NCBI RefSeq assembly: GCF_023525255.1
Contig: NZ_CP073355.1
Location: 2,046,001 to 2,110,000 of the forward strand
Source: Thermospira aquatica
GTDB taxonomy: Bacteria; Spirochaetota; Brevinematia; Brevinematales; Thermospiraceae
Direction: 5' to 3'
DNA length: 64,000 nt
Part shown: positions 37,761 through 45,961 of the stretch, piece after piece
Layout of the letters: each line of letters begins with the position of its first letter
How positions within the stretch are numbered: position 1 is the stretch's first letter
Position numbers and translations under genes: made by a program
The notes under the pieces: generated by a model
What the model saw: only the letters and a program-made list of their open reading frames with translations
Told to the model about the DNA's origin: nothing
The model's database searches: none

Positions 37761-39461
37761 TTAAGAATCCAAAAGCTTTTTCACATTTTTGGGGTTACGG
37801 AGCTTGCGAAGAGATTTCGCTTCAATCTGTCTCACACGCTCTCTGGTCACTCCGAGGGTATACCCAACCTCTTCCAGAGTATGAGGACAGCCATCTTCGA
37901 GTCCAAAACGAAGGATAAGAACCCGCTGTTCGCGGTAAGGTAACTGGTTGATAATTTCAAAGAGCTGTTCCCGCAACATGTTAGACATAGTGGAATTTAA
38001 TGGGCTAGTAGCACGATTATCCTCAATAAAATCCCCTAGCAATGAGTCTTCGTCCCTACCTACAGGGGTTTCAAGGGAAACAGGATCGTTGGCTACTACT
38101 TTAATTTTGCGAACCTTGTCAGGGGAGCACCCCATACGTTGAGCTATCTCCTCAATAGAAGGAAAAGCGCCTAATTCTTGTGTGAGATCCATTTCTATCT
38201 TTTTGATCTTGTTAATCTGTTCAATCATGTGAATAGGAATACGAATGGTTCGAGACTGTTCAGAGATAGAACGAGTGATGGCTTGCCTTATCCACCAGGT
38301 TGCATAGGTGGAAAATTTGTATCCCTTGTTATGGTCAAACTTTTCAACAGCACGCAAAAGCCCCATATTTCCTTCCTGGATAAGATCAAAGAGATGGACA
38401 CCACGGTTAATATAACGCTTGGCAATAGAGACAACCAGACGAAGATTGGCATTTACCAGTTCCTGTTTATGCTTATCGACAATCTCCTGACCAATAGTCA
38501 CCTCCTCTCCCCAATGAATAAGTTCAGGGATAGTAGCCGTATACATAGGTTCGTAACTTTTGAGTTTCTGTTGTATTCTTTCGATGTTGGCTATCACGTT
38601 TTGAAGCTGAATGTTATCAGGATACTTTTCTTTGAGGGCGAGAATCTCTTCAATAGTCATGTTGTTATTTTCTTCAATAATACGCAGCGTATCCTGCATT
38701 TCTTTGATTTCCTTATAGATAGTACGTAATTTTGCTGCAGCATTTTCCGTAAGCTTGGGATTAAGGTCTATATTTTGCACAAACATCAGAAAGGCATTGT
38801 TAAACTCATTGATCTGTTTTTTGATGGCTTTTTTTTCTTCTGGAGAGGCAACCAACCAGGCTCCCTTTAAAGGATCAACATGAGCATGATAATTTTTTAG
38901 AAATTCCCCTACTTTCTCGACGATTTTCATGCGCTCCTGCTTCTCTTTTCGATTCATGTTGTAAATCTTGGGGAGGTTAAAAAAGTCATACAGTTTGCCG
39001 GTATATTTTCCTTCATTTCGAGGATCCAGCAGACGAGAAGTTATCTCTTCAACTTCGGGAATAAATATACCAGAATCATGAACTGCTGTTCGTATCTTGA
39101 GTTGACCTTCTTCGATCTTACGAGCTATCTCAATCTCCTGCTCAGGAGAGAGAAGTGGAACCCTCCCAATCTTTTTTAGATAAACACGAAGAGGGTTGTC
39201 TGTTTGATCCTCTTCGGATTCAATGATAAAGCTTTCCAGATCTTCATCATCAAAAAAGTCCTCAAACTCGTCAAACATGTTTTCGGTGAGTGTAATGTCA
39301 TTTTCCTCAAGAATACGCACAACGTATTCTACTTTCTCCTGTGAGGACACAATATCATCCGGTAACCTTTGCAAAAGTTCATCGTAGGTAAGGATACCCT
39401 TTTCCTTACCATACTTGATCAAAGGCATCAAGGCTTCCATATCGATACCTTCGAATTCCAT
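37761..39461 (-). CDS. rpoD: Primary sigma factor RpoD (sigma70)
   Basis: A 566-residue vegetative sigma factor. An acidic region 1 is followed by region 1.2 ([22 protein letters not shown]), a non-conserved stretch, region 2 ([35 protein letters not shown]..., [17 protein letters not shown]), region 3 and region 4 ([45 protein letters not shown]). It is preceded by dnaG at 19 bp, the widespread dnaG-rpoD order. The ATG 39459-39461 follows AGGAGG. It should recognise the many TTGACA/TATAAT promoters found here. Confidence 0.97.
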
Positions 39462-39480
39462 TGATCTATCCTCCTTTTTT

Positions 39481-41268
39481 CTACTGCCATACTTGCTGGT
39501 GAAGTTCATCCAGAATCTGTCGTACCTTTTGAAGTTCTTCTTCTAGATGAGTTTTTTCGGTGTACAAGGTTTTCAACCAATCTGCATCAGCCTGCTGTTT
39601 TTGGGCTTGCTGAAGTTTCAAGGTACACTCTTGACTTTTTCTTTTGACATAATAAGCATAAAAGGTATATATAAGTTCCATGAATTTCTCTGGGGTTACA
39701 TTCTCTTCTCCGGGTTCCGCAATTTTCTTGCAAAGCGCATCGTCTTCGGCTACCTTTTCATACATAATAGCCATTGTTGGCTTATTTTCTATGAGATAAT
39801 AAAACCACTCTCGATAACGTTCATTTGTAAACATTTCGGGAGTAATCATGCTTTCTATCATTTCAAGGGCTGTTTTATCCGGAAACTTAATAAGCATCGC
39901 AAGGAGTGTACGTTCATATTCCTCTGCCACACTCTCTTGCTGAAGAGCCACGAGAGTATCCTTTTGCTCTGAAGAGCCGCGGAAATTTTTTCTTTTTTGA
40001 AGATATCGACGAAAATCTTCGTATAAGATATTTGGGTTCAGGTTCACTAAAGCAGCGAGAGACACAATAGCCTCATGCTGGGCTACTGGTTGTGAAATTT
40101 TAGACAAAAATTGAAACATTTCCTCAAGATGTTTGTTGAGAGGCTGCTCTTTTAGCTGATATTCGCGGATATACATCCATTTAAATTGAAGAGGACTTTG
40201 GATTTCGTGTTCCAGAAATTGTAAAAACGCATCTTTCCCTTTTTCTAAAATCATTTCATCTGGATCCATATTCTGTGGAAGAATCACCACCCCACTCTCC
40301 ATATTGGTTTCTATGAGGATATCAAGAGATCGTGAAGCAGCCTGTAACCCTGCACTATCCCCATCAAATAAAAGTATTACTTTATCGACATAACGCTGCA
40401 GCAACTGAAGATGTGCCTCCGTAAGAGCTGTTCCGAGAGGAGCTACGGCTGATGTAATACCCGCCTGATGGAGACTCAGAACATCCATATACCCTTCCAC
40501 AAGGATTGCCTTTTTTTCTTTTACAAGGGTGTCTTTTGCATGAAAAAAACCATACAAGACATCACTTTTTTTAAACCATGGGGTTTCTGGACTATTGAGA
40601 TACTTAACACCTTCTGTTGTTCCAAAAATTCTCCCTCCAAAAGCAATGGGATATCCTTCGCGATCATAGATAGGAAAAAGAATCCTCCCCGCAAATCTAT
40701 CGCGATGCTCGTATGATCCAAGGAGCCCCCATTTCACCATCTGGGCATACGAAAATCCACGGCTGTGAAGATATTCTCCGATCTCACGTGGATCACTACT
40801 ATACCCCATTCGAAACTTTTTGATGGTTTCCTCGTTTAAACCTCGAGAAAACAGGTACTCTCGTGCCTTTTCTCCTTTGGAAGACCAGAGATTTTTAGCG
40901 TAAAAATCCACTGCCTGCTGATAAAACGAAATATAATCCTGTCGTCTTTCTTCTGATTTTGTGCCTCCAGAAAGATAAAGGCTTATATCCTCGTTGGCTA
41001 ATCTTGCCAGATACTCCATCGCTTCGATAAAAGACAAATGCTTATATTCTTTGAGAAAAGTAATAGCATTTCCTTTGGCATGACAACCAAAACAGTAATA
41101 CACTCCCTCCTCATTATTAACAGAAAAAGAAGGGGTACGCTCCTTATGAAAAGGACACAATGCCATATATTGGCGTCCTTTTCTCACAAATTGAATGCCT
41201 TCTCGTTCCATGATATCTACAAGTGAAACCTTTGAAAGAATTTTATCCTTTATATGATCAGGAATCAT
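39481..41268 (-). CDS. dnaG: DNA primase
   Basis: A 595-residue primase. The CHC2 zinc finger is [13 protein letters not shown]...[12 protein letters not shown] (about 36-66), followed by the catalytic core with [20 protein letters not shown] and the Toprim residues in [15 protein letters not shown] and LLFDGDSAG. The C-terminal helicase-binding part is diverged, as usual. It begins at ATG 41266-41268 after AAGGA. It is co-transcribed with rpoD. A 62-bp gap to pgeF contains an A/T palindrome, so an internal promoter is possible. Confidence 0.97.
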
Positions 41269-41290
41269 AGATCCTTCTTTTCCACCTTTA

Positions 41291-41312
41291 CATACGTATA
41301 TATAATATACGC
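41291..41312. promoter_or_regulatory. A/T palindrome upstream of dnaG
   Basis: CGTATA-N5-TATACG (minus strand, 41295-41311) sits 27 bases before the dnaG start in the only non-coding gap (62 bp) of this operon. It includes TATATT, a possible -10, but no good -35 was found. It may be a regulator site or a weak promoter. Confidence 0.35.
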
Positions 41313-41330
41313 ATATTGAAAAGAAAAATC

Positions 41331-42056
41331 CTAATTTTTTTTCTCTTTTTTTTGTCCGATGAAATGAAGGTGACGACAATGTCTATCACCTCTACGATAC
41401 GAATACCAGAGGCTAGGATCACTGCAAAAAGTACAAATAGGTATACTCTCCCCCCGTTTGACACCCATATTCTGAAGATCATTGATCACTTTTTTTTCAA
41501 GATCAAGATACCAGCCATTGTTTTTTTGAATAGCATAGGTGAAAGAAAACTCTTGAGCAACATCCTCTCCCACCTGGTAGCAACACTGCCGTATATGGGG
41601 ACCTATCAAAAATTGAAAACGAGAAATATCATACCCCGCCTTCATCACCTCTTCTACGAACACTTTATGGATTTCCTTTTGGATGCCACGTCTTCCTGCA
41701 TGAACTATGCCAACCACGTCTTCTGACCAGAAAAACAACGGAAGACAATCAGCGGTAAATACGCCTAACAAAATATCAGGAAGCGTTGTCCAGAGTCCAT
41801 CTCCTTCTATCAAAGGATTTTGAAGAAAATACCAGAGATTTTCCTCTGATACTCGATGAACTATAGAAGAATGAGTCTGATGAAGGGTTACCAGATGAGG
41901 AAAACCTAATCTTTGACAGAGTTCATTTCTTGAAGAGGTAACAGGGGGATAATCCTCTTCTTTTTCCAGCGTATGATAGGCATATTGTGATGCCCCTCGA
42001 AGAGTGGAACCCATGAGTGGTTTATGATGGTAAAGGGTAAAGAGATGGTTCGTCAT
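41331..42056 (-). CDS. pgeF: Laccase-domain protein (PgeF/YfiH family)
   Basis: A 241-residue protein of the YfiH/multicopper polyphenol oxidase domain family. The conserved zinc-site residues are visible in LHQTHSSIVH, FTADCLPLFFW and GIVHAGRRGI. In E. coli PgeF corrects L-Ser mis-incorporation in cell-wall precursors; other members act as purine nucleoside phosphorylases, so activity is undecided. It lies three bases after the GAF-phosphatase gene and upstream of dnaG in the same operon. Confidence 0.88.
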   Translation of the reverse strand: MTNHLFTLYHHKPLMGSTLRGASQYAYHTLEKEEDYPPVTSSRNELCQRLGFPHLVTLHQTHSSIVHRVSEENLWYFLQNPLIEGDGLWTTLPDILLGVFTADCLPLFFWSEDVVGIVHAGRRGIQKEIHKVFVEEVMKAGYDISRFQFLIGPHIRQCCYQVGEDVAQEFSFTYAIQKNNGWYLDLEKKVINDLQNMGVKRGESIPICTFCSDPSLWYSYRRGDRHCRHLHFIGQKKEKKN

Positions 42057-42059
42057 AGA

Positions 42060-43811
42060 TTAAGCCAACTTAAACGCCAGCACGGTAATATCATCCCAGG
42101 GCAAAACCCCTTCACTCCATTTTTCCACCTCTCGAATCAACGCCTGAACAAAGGCTGAAGCACTCATGTTTCCATACGTTTCAACAACTTTCTTGAGGTT
42201 TTGAAACCCAAATTCTACGCCATTCGCATTATTTGCCTCAATAACCCCGTCTGTTACCAGGAATACAAGATCATAAGGATTGAGCATGATTGACTGAGAC
42301 TCATATTCAGTTTTTGGTTGAATTCCGAGTGGTATGCCTTTTCCTGTAAGAAGATGTATCTGATTCGTCTGTCCACGATAGACATACTGCATATTGTGTC
42401 CGGCATTTGCATAGCGTAATTCAGAGGTTTCAAGATTCAGTACCCCATAGAAAACAGTAACAAACATCCCTACCCGGGAATCATCATAGAGAATGTTATT
42501 AGCTTTCTCCAGAACCTTATCCGGTTCCTGTAATTGATAAGCATAAGCTTTCAAAACACTTCGAGAAACAGCCATAAAAAGAGAAGCCGGCAATCCCTTT
42601 CCAGAAACATCCCCTATAACAAACCCTATATGATTTTTGTCCAGTTCAAATACATCGTAGAAGTCTCCACCTACTACTTCAGCAGGGATCATTTGAGCCC
42701 CTAGAGAAAGTTTAGAAAAATGGGTAAAGTCTTTAATAAGAAGAGCATTTTGAAGCATACGAAGAATATCTATTTCTTTACGAAGTTTTTCGTGTTCAAT
42801 TCGCTCTTGATAAATATTCAGTGCTTCATACGTATACCCTACCTGCGACGCAATAGTCTGGAGAAGTTTTACCTTTTCTATAGAATAGGAAACATTCTCA
42901 TGCGGTTCACTTACACTAAGAACACCTATAGGAATATTTTTACTCCGTATAGGAACAGCCATAAAAGCACCCTTTTGATAACGTAAACGTTTATTTTTTA
43001 TTCCTTGCTGTTCAATATTGTTAGTAAAAAAAGCCCTGTTTTTTTTCATCACCATGGCAGAAATACGATCCGAATCAAGGGGAATCTGAATCTTTTCCGT
43101 AAGGTCTTTATCCATCCCTGTTCCAGCAAAAAGAATTAAGGCATTCTTTTTTTCATCATGAAACATTATGGATACTCTTTCAGACTCAAAAACCTCTTGA
43201 ATAAGCGACACGATTTGATCAAAAACCTCTCTCTGGTTAAAAGATGACGTCGTGAGGTTACTAATCCTGTAAAGATACTCCATCTCTTTGGCTCTGTCTT
43301 TTATCTCCTGATAAAGAAAAGAGTTCCATATAGCAATAGCTGCCTGGTTGGCAAAACTTTGCAGAAGCAATACATCTTCTTCATCGAAGCCCCCATCTCT
43401 TGCATTTACTACCTCAAGTACCCCAATGACAATATCGTTTCTTAGCAAGGGAACCGCTACCAGGTTACGCGTTTGAGTCTGGGTAAGCCTATCCACACCA
43501 CTATAAAAATCCTTTTCCTGACTGGTATCGTTCACAATCCGGTAGGTTTTTGTCTGGGCTACCTGTCCGGCTATACCCTTGCCGCGAGGAACAACAATTG
43601 ACAAAAGTTTATCGAAACTAAGCCCAAAAGCCACCTCAAAATGAAGATCACCTGTCTCCTGATCAACTAAAAGAACAGAAGCCCCTTCTGCATTCAGAAG
43701 TTTGGTGGCATACAAAGCAATATCCTGTAAAATATCTTTTGGTCTTGCAAGAGAGTTGATCTTTTGACTGATATCGAGAATAGCCTCAAGATCCTGAATA
43801 CCCAAAGCCAT
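42060..43811 (-). CDS. GAF-GAF-PP2C (SpoIIE/RsbU-type) serine phosphatase
   Basis: A 583-residue cytosolic signalling protein. Two GAF sensor domains (about residues 20-165 and 195-335), each ending in an AVPLL/VGV-type core (LVAVPLLRNDIVIGVLEVV; FMAVPIRSKNIPIGVLSVS), are joined by a helical linker to a SpoIIE-type PP2C domain (about 370-580). Metal-binding aspartates lie in EVVGGDFYDVF, VIGDVSGKGLPAS and the closing PWDDITVLAFK. Such enzymes dephosphorylate anti-anti-sigma factors in partner switches. No STAS antagonist or RsbW pair is adjacent; the lone GHKL protein at 2972 is a speculative partner. Confidence 0.92.
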   Translation of the reverse strand: MALGIQDLEAILDISQKINSLARPKDILQDIALYATKLLNAEGASVLLVDQETGDLHFEVAFGLSFDKLLSIVVPRGKGIAGQVAQTKTYRIVNDTSQEKDFYSGVDRLTQTQTRNLVAVPLLRNDIVIGVLEVVNARDGGFDEEDVLLLQSFANQAAIAIWNSFLYQEIKDRAKEMEYLYRISNLTTSSFNQREVFDQIVSLIQEVFESERVSIMFHDEKKNALILFAGTGMDKDLTEKIQIPLDSDRISAMVMKKNRAFFTNNIEQQGIKNKRLRYQKGAFMAVPIRSKNIPIGVLSVSEPHENVSYSIEKVKLLQTIASQVGYTYEALNIYQERIEHEKLRKEIDILRMLQNALLIKDFTHFSKLSLGAQMIPAEVVGGDFYDVFELDKNHIGFVIGDVSGKGLPASLFMAVSRSVLKAYAYQLQEPDKVLEKANNILYDDSRVGMFVTVFYGVLNLETSELRYANAGHNMQYVYRGQTNQIHLLTGKGIPLGIQPKTEYESQSIMLNPYDLVFLVTDGVIEANNANGVEFGFQNLKKVVETYGNMSASAFVQALIREVEKWSEGVLPWDDITVLAFKLA

Positions 43812-43822
43812 AATATTCTCCT

Positions 43823-44965
43823 TTAATAGGCTGCGGAATAGATTTCAACGAGCTCATTTTTACTGGCTGGTCGTGGGATATACGTGAGAAATTCATATTG
43901 ACCAGCAACACGAGCAGCTGCCTCTAAACGATCCTGTTCTACATTGTACTCTGAAAGTCTCTGAGGAATATGAAGATCAAGCATGATGCGGCGCATGGCT
44001 TCCACGGCCATAATAGCTGCCTCAATCACCGAAATATCGGTAACCTTCTCACCAAGAGCAGCGGCAATTTGAATAAATTTATTGGCCGCTGCTGTAAGAT
44101 TAAACTCCATCACATGGGGAAGAATCACTGATGCACCAACAGACTGGGATATGTTTGTCTGTGATTCTAATCCCATTGCTGTAGCCGCGCATGTACCAAG
44201 AGAAGATCCATAAATAGCCAAGGAAGCCAACAAACTTCCCATGCTAAGATTACCCTTAATCTTTGTGTTAGCCGTTTCCACTGCCAGACGTTTAAGATTG
44301 ACACTTAAGTATTCTATCGCTCTCAAACTAAAGGCATCAGAAATTGGATTTGCCTTTTTACAAATATACGCATCAAAAGAGTAAGCAATAGCTTCCAGAC
44401 TAGAATAGATAATATCATTTAAAGGGACATCTTCACTCAACGTTGGATCAATAATAACACTATGGGCTACAGATTCCTTATCGATGTATGGTTTTTTTAT
44501 CTTGTCAGTATCATCCGTAATATAGGTCATGGGTAAAAGTCCCCAACATATGGTTTGAAGTGTAGGAATCTCTATATAGCGTACCTTTTTCACAAAAAGT
44601 TTTTTGTGACTCTTTACCTCTTCCTGCTGAAACTCGTGAGTACTAAATTGAGCAATGATCTTGGCAATCGAGAGAACCGTAGCATCCCCTACTCCTATCA
44701 CGACATCAGCCCGAGCATGTTTTGTGATATTCACTCCCTCAAAGAGATCCTGGGAGTTATAACGCTTCATTTCGTAAAGAATAACTCCATAGGCATACCC
44801 TTCTATCATCTGCTTTATCTTGTGAGCGACGGAAGAGTTATGAGGTTTTTTGTCGGTTACTATGACCACTTTTTCAGAATTGGGGGTTGCAAGCTCTGGC
44901 AACCTAATCAATGAATCAGTTCCATAGACAATCAAGGTAGGAATCTGGAACTCAAGAAAAGCCAT
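43823..44965 (-). CDS. Iron-alcohol-dehydrogenase-like protein lacking metal ligands
   Basis: A 380-residue protein with the overall Fe-ADH/dehydroquinate-synthase fold: an N-terminal dinucleotide half and a C-terminal helical half ending each motif in place (ADVVIGVGDATVLSIAK; SVGASVILPHVMEFN). Compared with E. coli FucO the metal site is lost: Asp becomes Glu191, the first His Tyr195, the second His Ala260 and the third His Gln274; the catalytic His is Met264. The GGGS nucleotide loop reads GVGD (about 91-94). It is therefore probably not a metal-dependent alcohol dehydrogenase, but a pseudoenzyme or one with new chemistry. It is well kept in an operon with dnaG and rpoD. Confidence 0.75.
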   Translation of the reverse strand: MAFLEFQIPTLIVYGTDSLIRLPELATPNSEKVVIVTDKKPHNSSVAHKIKQMIEGYAYGVILYEMKRYNSQDLFEGVNITKHARADVVIGVGDATVLSIAKIIAQFSTHEFQQEEVKSHKKLFVKKVRYIEIPTLQTICWGLLPMTYITDDTDKIKKPYIDKESVAHSVIIDPTLSEDVPLNDIIYSSLEAIAYSFDAYICKKANPISDAFSLRAIEYLSVNLKRLAVETANTKIKGNLSMGSLLASLAIYGSSLGTCAATAMGLESQTNISQSVGASVILPHVMEFNLTAAANKFIQIAAALGEKVTDISVIEAAIMAVEAMRRIMLDLHIPQRLSEYNVEQDRLEAAARVAGQYEFLTYIPRPASKNELVEIYSAAY

Positions 44966-45040: not shown

Positions 45041-45961
45041 TTAAAAAAAAACCCGCTGAAGAAGACTAATCCATACCGTCAGGGTAACCGTGCTAAGCAA
45101 AATCGAAATAAAAACAATCTCGCTTGCAAGATCAGCTTTTCCCCCATAATGAGAAGTAAGAATTGCTGTGTATACCGCTGATGGCATGGCAACCTGCAAA
45201 AGTCCTGCATTGAAGTACATCTTTTTGACCCCAAAAAGTCCAAAAAAGAGTATGGCCACGAAAGGAACGATAACAAGTTTTACCAGAGCTACCGCAAGAC
45301 TAAAAAAACTTTGTTTTCCGAACCGCACGGAAGCTAGTTGAAGTCCAACCTGGATAAGATTGAGAGGAATTGCACTGAGTCCCACCATCTGAATAGGTTT
45401 AAAAATAGGCTCAGGGATGGTTATACGAAACCAGACTGCAAAAAGAGCTAACAAAATCGCATAAAAAACGGGTACACCCGCCATAGAACGCAGAGCATCT
45501 TTCCAGTGGAATTTTTCTCTTGCGGCCAAAAATACACCAAAACTATGAGTGTAAAAAGAATAAATAACAAGTAGAAGAGACGCCACAGCAAGACCTTCTC
45601 CACCAAAGGCAGCTTCTGTAATAGGGAGACCAAAGTTTCCCGTATTCGCTAACGTAACTGTCAAAACCACCACCCGGGTAATCCGCTCATCCCAGCCAAA
45701 GAACCGAGAAACAAGAAGAACCAGACCAAAAGAAAGAGCGATAACACAAGTAACTGCTAAAAACAAGCGAAGAAAATAGGCATTGATCACTTCTGGATGA
45801 CTATAAATTGCCTGAAAGATCAGAGCAGGCGTTAATAAGTACAAAGAAAGAGTGGAGAGGGTTTGATGATGCCAGTGAAAAATTCTGCCTAAAACATATC
45901 CTGCACCAAAAATCAGGATAACAGGAAAAACAATCGTATAAAATATCTCAAACCAACCCAT
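45041..45961 (-). CDS. AEC-family (auxin-efflux-carrier-like) permease
   Basis: A 306-residue inner-membrane transporter with about ten hydrophobic helices in two five-helix halves. The helix-break motif NTGNFGLPI in the first half and the matching MPSAVYTAIL in the second are typical of AEC transporters (malonate, malate and similar carboxylates, or unknown substrates in bacteria). It follows the GalT-like gene by one base and precedes the Fe-ADH-like gene by 75 bp. The substrate cannot be inferred. Confidence 0.9.
   Translation of the reverse strand: MGWFEIFYTIVFPVILIFGAGYVLGRIFHWHHQTLSTLSLYLLTPALIFQAIYSHPEVINAYFLRLFLAVTCVIALSFGLVLLVSRFFGWDERITRVVVLTVTLANTGNFGLPITEAAFGGEGLAVASLLLVIYSFYTHSFGVFLAAREKFHWKDALRSMAGVPVFYAILLALFAVWFRITIPEPIFKPIQMVGLSAIPLNLIQVGLQLASVRFGKQSFFSLAVALVKLVIVPFVAILFFGLFGVKKMYFNAGLLQVAMPSAVYTAILTSHYGGKADLASEIVFISILLSTVTLTVWISLLQRVFF

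Follow-up and report, generated by a model that had tools for sequence, protein, structure and literature searches.

Background

An iron-containing alcohol dehydrogenase (Fe-ADH) that takes part in regulation has been described before. In Pseudomonas, a signalling cascade depends on the Fe-ADH known as ErcA/YiaY, whose gene lies in one operon with that of a sensor kinase (PMC12997753). Flagellar sigma-28 control has likewise been followed in spirochaetes. FlgM of Treponema denticola (TDE0201), an antagonist of FliA, is reported to behave unusually and to stabilise FliA (PMC12655853 citing Kurniyati 2023; PMC9481697), and sigma-28 is stated to be absent in B. burgdorferi (PMC10802407). The Fe-ADH fold and the regulatory Fe-ADH precedent are thus already known; the main new finding that we report here is the linkage of a spirochaete Fe-ADH-like protein to flgM. 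Our search of the open-access literature returned no description of a pseudoenzyme of the Fe-ADH family or of a link between FlgM and an ADH in spirochaetes, while a passing mention in the primary T. denticola FlgM paper is possible.

The starting point is a stretch of 64,000 nucleotides of Thermospira aquatica (contig NZ_CP073355.1, positions 2,046,001 to 2,110,000 of the forward strand), which we call the window. A gene at 43823-44965 had been proposed from the letters alone to encode an Fe-ADH homologue in which every metal ligand is replaced. The reading frame is real and lies on the minus strand, a detail that the proposal did not give. It encodes 380 amino acids, begins with ATG, ends with a stop at 43823-43825, and has a Shine-Dalgarno-like AAGGAG just 5' of the start.

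Loss of the catalytic site

Membership of the protein in the Fe-ADH superfamily is clear from Pfam, since it passes the cut-offs of both PF25137 (105 bits against 27) and PF00465 (72 bits against 31.3). One very divergent member of the clade described below scores under the C-terminal Pfam cut-off. The NCBIfam equivalog models for lactaldehyde reductase, ErcA and other enzymes match the window protein far under their cut-offs; orthology with ErcA (NF041833) is ruled out by score, 140.6 bits against a cut-off of 550. The nearest solved structures, at 22-26% identity, are those of methanol dehydrogenase, 1,3-propanediol oxidoreductase and FucO.

Our reference for the active site is FucO of E. 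coli MG1655, numbered from Met1, with metal ligands D195, H199, H262 and H276 and catalytic H266; the PDB numbering is one higher. Alignment with FucO gives exactly the replacements that had been claimed. The ligand Asp is represented by E191 (codon 44393-44395, minus strand, as for all codons here), the three ligand His by Y195 (44381-44383; FucO H199), A260 (44186-44188; H262) and Q274 (44144-44146; H276), and the catalytic His by M264 (44174-44176). The phmmer alignments of the window protein to 8zrl and 3bfj agree with these columns. The nucleotide loop, described in the original prediction as GVGD, is indeed degenerate: residues 93-99 (44669-44689, minus strand) read GDATVLS where FucO has GGGSPQD, and with the preceding residues the stretch is GVGDATVLS.

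It could be argued that a better alignment would bring His residues back to the metal site. The same columns, however, yield complete ligand sets in catalytic paralogues and in outgroups, so that an artefact of alignment is ruled out: Thermospira's own second Fe-ADH has the full DHHH there, and the other catalytic Fe-ADH paralogues of spirochaete genomes have DHHH or DQHH.

The search for relatives with similar substitutions led to a whole clade, which we refer to as pseudo-ADH. Among the 151 distinct members in which all four ligand columns could be read, 119 keep none of the metal ligands, 31 keep one and a single member keeps two. A complete Asp-His-His-His site was found in none of the 151 (the window protein reads EYAQ), and in none is the GGGSxxD cofactor loop intact, with G97, S98 and D101 together. 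At the catalytic position most members have Leu or Met, and a lone His occurs in 3 of the 151. By these criteria of sequence, the metal site and the loop, the window protein fails as a catalytic Fe-ADH.

The fold has been retained, as had been expected from the intact motifs. AlphaFold2 models of two distant members have a pLDDT of 93.5 (window protein) and 91.2 (a Treponema-type member). The predicted structure of the window protein has the two-domain fold of the dehydroquinate synthase type and superimposes on FucO and on Bacillus methanol dehydrogenase with Z about 48 and an rmsd of 2.2-2.5 A over about 365 residues. The gene is under strong purifying selection: comparisons inside the window's genus give a dN/dS of 0.009-0.023, with dS near saturation. 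A decaying pseudogene is ruled out by a dN/dS of about 0.02 together with the single open frames. With all 151 members broken at that dN/dS, the state of the active site is far beyond chance.

G93, P134, D173, P283 and L337 are structural positions kept in the clade, and T291, E306, E322, R325 and R336, all in the C-terminal domain, are enriched in it. G93 (the first Gly of the loop), P134 and D173 are invariant, while the second Gly of the loop is kept in 80% and K102 in 82%. The positions that bind cofactor and metal in the enzymes are free to vary: G97, S98 and D101 of the cofactor loop are not conserved, nor are T139, T140, G142, T143 and K161, and the ligand positions change freely from family to family, all four being small or nonpolar in 67 of the 151 members. 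No conserved substitute set of polar residues was found at the old active site across the 151.

These observations bear on two alternatives. The original prediction left room for a new activity, which would make the protein a metal-independent enzyme on the Fe-ADH fold. A fully intact predicted fold and strong purifying selection are what one would expect of such an enzyme. However, the most conserved residues do not come together as a new polar cluster where the old site was, and the ligand positions vary freely between families, with small or nonpolar residues at all four in 67 of the 151 members. In our opinion the idea finds no support here and is very improbable. The other alternative is a non-catalytic sensor, whose remodelled cleft would still bind a nucleotide or small metabolite, so that the flagellar switch or, in the window's taxonomic order (Brevinematales), a neighbouring SpoIIE phosphatase could be informed of the state of metabolism. 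The invariant G93, P134 and D173 and the largely kept second Gly of the loop and K102 speak for it, as do the case of ErcA/YiaY, where an Fe-ADH is able to act in signalling, and the presence of that phosphatase gene in Brevinematales. On the other side stand the lack of conservation at G97, S98 and D101 of the cofactor loop and at T139, T140, G142, T143 and K161, and the lack of any polar set at the old active site common to the clade. We regard a sensor of this kind as unlikely.

Distribution and origin

Relatives of the window protein gave a match in all 31 Spirochaetota genomes first searched. A profile built from 26 of these relatives was then run on 247 Spirochaetota genomes and matched 223 of them, a count that still includes catalytic Fe-ADHs. 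Once the genomes with a catalytic match only are set aside, pseudo-ADH is present in about 207 of the 247 and in 153 of the 182 good ones; for the members that were fetched we inspected the ligands themselves, and for the remainder of the approximately 207 the assignment is inferred from score. Judging by these matches, nearly every sequenced spirochaete appears to have the gene, the Lyme-type and the non-motile ones excepted. An oddity of one genome is ruled out by such a spread.

Named genomes of bacteria and archaea were scanned with short peptide patterns, of which the best 80 matches were kept (so that rare members elsewhere are possible). Here the metal-less matches carried spirochaete or unassigned names with the exception of one contig, and matches from other phyla kept DHHH. 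The exception is labelled Caldithrix (L243, contig DYKF01000091.1). It is probably mis-binned, because its pseudo-ADH, its FlgM and the gap between them nearly match those of a contig of Turneriella (L244), which likewise came from a cave sample of similar kind.

In the maximum-likelihood tree, where the root of the drawing is arbitrary, one branch with 100/100 support splits 52 pseudo rows from 24 catalytic ones, and the window protein groups with flgM-linked members on the pseudo side. Since one branch parts the two, a single loss of catalysis explains all cases. Pseudo-ADH is thus one ancient clade, restricted to Spirochaetota in the searches made, and a recent horizontal acquisition is unsupported, the clade being monophyletic and phylum-wide. 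The conserved pseudoenzyme of the original prediction is in this way strongly supported: a phylum-wide single clade, no complete metal site, purifying selection and an intact fold.

Gene order in the window and in other spirochaetes

The gene had been placed in a dnaG-rpoD operon. Indeed, the window has a same-strand run, a putative operon, in the order of a DUF4921 gene, Mem_trans, pseudo-ADH, a GAF-GAF-SpoIIE phosphatase, a YfiH-like laccase-domain gene, dnaG and rpoD. The Mem_trans gene (45041-45961, minus strand; Pfam) encodes an auxin-efflux-carrier-like transporter and lies 75 nt upstream of pseudo-ADH; the same neighbour (cluster c7) occurs in related Brevinematales. The RsbU-like phosphatase gene (42060-43811, minus strand; Pfam) lies 11 nt downstream, and its cluster, c12, occupies the next position after pseudo-ADH in 6 Brevinematales loci (among L032-L038). 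Two genes were identified from their translations: dnaG, encoding primase, in an ORF at 39481-41379 (minus strand) whose true start is probably internal (MIPDHIKD...), and rpoD, encoding the primary sigma factor, at 37761-39509 (minus strand; RpoD-level match G000:C1:2083794-2084411).

As a general functional clue this context does not hold. The gene order of the window around pseudo-ADH is common to its closest relatives only, and in the loci sampled no genus but that of the window has pseudo-ADH near dnaG and rpoD, so that these genes are ruled out as a general functional context. The SpoIIE phosphatase beside pseudo-ADH in Brevinematales is, as a separate observation, a second link to sigma-factor control. 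Elsewhere in the window a ZMP/ZTP riboswitch is found at 267-345 on the minus strand (Rfam RF01750, 50.9 bits).

Outside the window's class the usual order is rsmI-flgM-pseudoADH. In most other families pseudo-ADH is preceded by a gene for a TP_methylase-domain protein, which reads as RsmI, and by one for a protein of about 100 amino acids. The latter is FlgM, the anti-sigma-28 factor, with PF04316 above cut-off in all five proteins tested. Of the 103 genomes for which the ADH was the sole basis of selection, 72 have flgM, by the FlgM profile, as the immediate upstream neighbour in the same orientation. The figure is 84 of 115 when 12 loci fetched by FlgM position are added; overall the adjacency is seen in 36 of 44 families, against a rough chance expectation of 0.0007 per genome. 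The gap between the two genes is 4 to 177 nt, with a median of about 75 nt, in the 38 loci where both were called cleanly. Highly divergent pseudo-ADHs, which score about 100 bits with the profile, were recovered in the slot next to flgM. In at least 9 loci from several families (L040, L133 and others) pseudo-ADH is followed by an AIR-carboxylase-domain (LarB-like) gene.

That pseudo-ADH stands behind flgM in most spirochaetes points to a function other than the one suggested by dnaG and rpoD. In Thermospira rsmI and flgM lie together at about 457.4-458.4 kb of the contig (G000:C1), with pseudo-ADH far off at 2089.8 kb; in the window's taxonomic order the gene has left flgM and now lies with dnaG and rpoD. 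The place behind the rsmI-flgM pair is taken by a TrpR/YerC-like gene and a small ORF resembling a J domain (L175 2398-4109; G000:C1 about 457.4-459.1 kb).

The linkage is missing in the window's class (families f1-f5) and in families f14, f32 and f43. These breaks count against a role with FlgM, and operon adjacency can be a matter of positional inertia. One may then suppose that pseudo-ADH merely travels with an old rsmI-flgM operon as a passenger and has an unrelated role, neither flagellar nor catalytic, for example as a scaffold of another complex. It fits this view that rsmI, a gene without obvious flagellar link, shares the operon, that several lineages lost the linkage and kept the gene, and that FlgM persists without pseudo-ADH in some genomes. 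It does not fit that the flgM-pseudoADH adjacency extends across 36 families and holds also where rsmI goes undetected upstream, nor that pseudo-ADH is absent where FlgM and FliA are absent. We doubt that the gene is such a passenger.

Co-occurrence with FlgM and FliA

We used FliG as the marker of flagella, FliA as that of the sigma factor and FlgM as that of its brake. Among the 182 good genomes, 151 have both pseudo-ADH and FlgM, 22 have neither, 2 have pseudo-ADH without FlgM and 7 have FlgM without pseudo-ADH (Fisher p 3e-20 before correction for shared ancestry, a value that overstates independence because the absences go back to a small number of evolutionary events, mainly in two lineages). 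One of these lineages, the non-flagellated family f49, is without FliG, FliA, FlgM and pseudo-ADH. The other, the Borreliaceae-like family f36 with genomes of about 1 Mb, keeps FliG and lacks both FlgM and pseudo-ADH, with FliA absent in all four genomes tested. Such family names follow from the size of the genomes and the genes that they contain.

The discordant genomes are few. Of the two that seem to have pseudo-ADH without FlgM, one has an FlgM-like ORF found by the family profile and missed by a shorter profile, and in the other the gene is cut at a contig end. The seven with FlgM only, one of which is a Treponema-family genome of 1.14 Mb, indicate that pseudo-ADH is not indispensable for FlgM.

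Proposed role

We propose, at roughly even chances, that pseudo-ADH is a non-catalytic regulatory or binding partner in the FlgM/FliA (anti-sigma-28/sigma-28) switch for late flagellar genes, and that the catalytically dead form was fixed in the common ancestor of spirochaetes; the estimate is for the two statements jointly. The regulatory reading is plausible given the ErcA/YiaY signalling precedent and the unusual FlgM of T. denticola. Most likely the protein would use its conserved C-terminal domain to bind cytoplasmic FlgM, alone or paired with FliA, and would thereby determine what share of FlgM is free, what share is protected and what share is passed on for flagellar export. Binding to FlgM or FliA would in turn be expected to affect sigma-28 output. 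Unlinked copies, such as that of Thermospira, would presumably keep the ancestral role.

A more far-reaching version, to which we commit ourselves only tentatively, is that the phylum as a whole has made a metabolic enzyme into a dedicated partner of the anti-sigma factor, so that the FlgM/sigma-28 checkpoint of the flagellum would have pseudo-ADH as its third component. Such a component is unknown in the E. coli / Salmonella model. A partner role might help explain the unusual T. denticola FlgM.

Implications

On the score of the family models the protein would be labelled lactaldehyde reductase or iron-containing alcohol dehydrogenase. Hundreds of spirochaete genomes, among them relatives of Treponema and Leptospira, would almost certainly be given a wrong annotation in this way, and metabolic models built on it will be misled. 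Should the link to FlgM prove functional, pseudo-ADH would be an unrecognised flagellar regulator in a phylum in which several diseases depend on motility. It would also be a clean natural example of an enzyme that became a regulator, datable to the base of the phylum. It also makes testable why the spirochaete FlgM behaves unlike the Salmonella protein.

Comparison with known systems

With the Fe-ADH enzymes (FucO, Bacillus methanolicus methanol dehydrogenase, 1,3-propanediol oxidoreductase) pseudo-ADH shares the whole-length fold, homologous sequence and both Pfam domains. It differs in having lost the four metal ligands, the catalytic His and the GGGSxxD loop, and the split between the two groups has 100/100 support. 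With ErcA/YiaY, an Fe-ADH-fold protein that acts in regulation and is encoded in an operon with a signalling gene (PMC12997753), it shares the fold and, on the proposed reading, the regulatory role. However, ErcA/YiaY is described as an Fe2+-dependent dehydrogenase (PMC12997753), and it belongs to another phylum, with another partner and another pathway.

The FlgM of T. denticola offers the closest comparison for the proposed partner. The literature that our search returned deals with FlgM by itself, and no mention of the pseudo-ADH downstream was found (PMC9481697; PMC12655853 citing Kurniyati 2023). In our data most genomes of family f22, which is Treponema-like, have a Treponema-type flgM directly upstream of pseudo-ADH.
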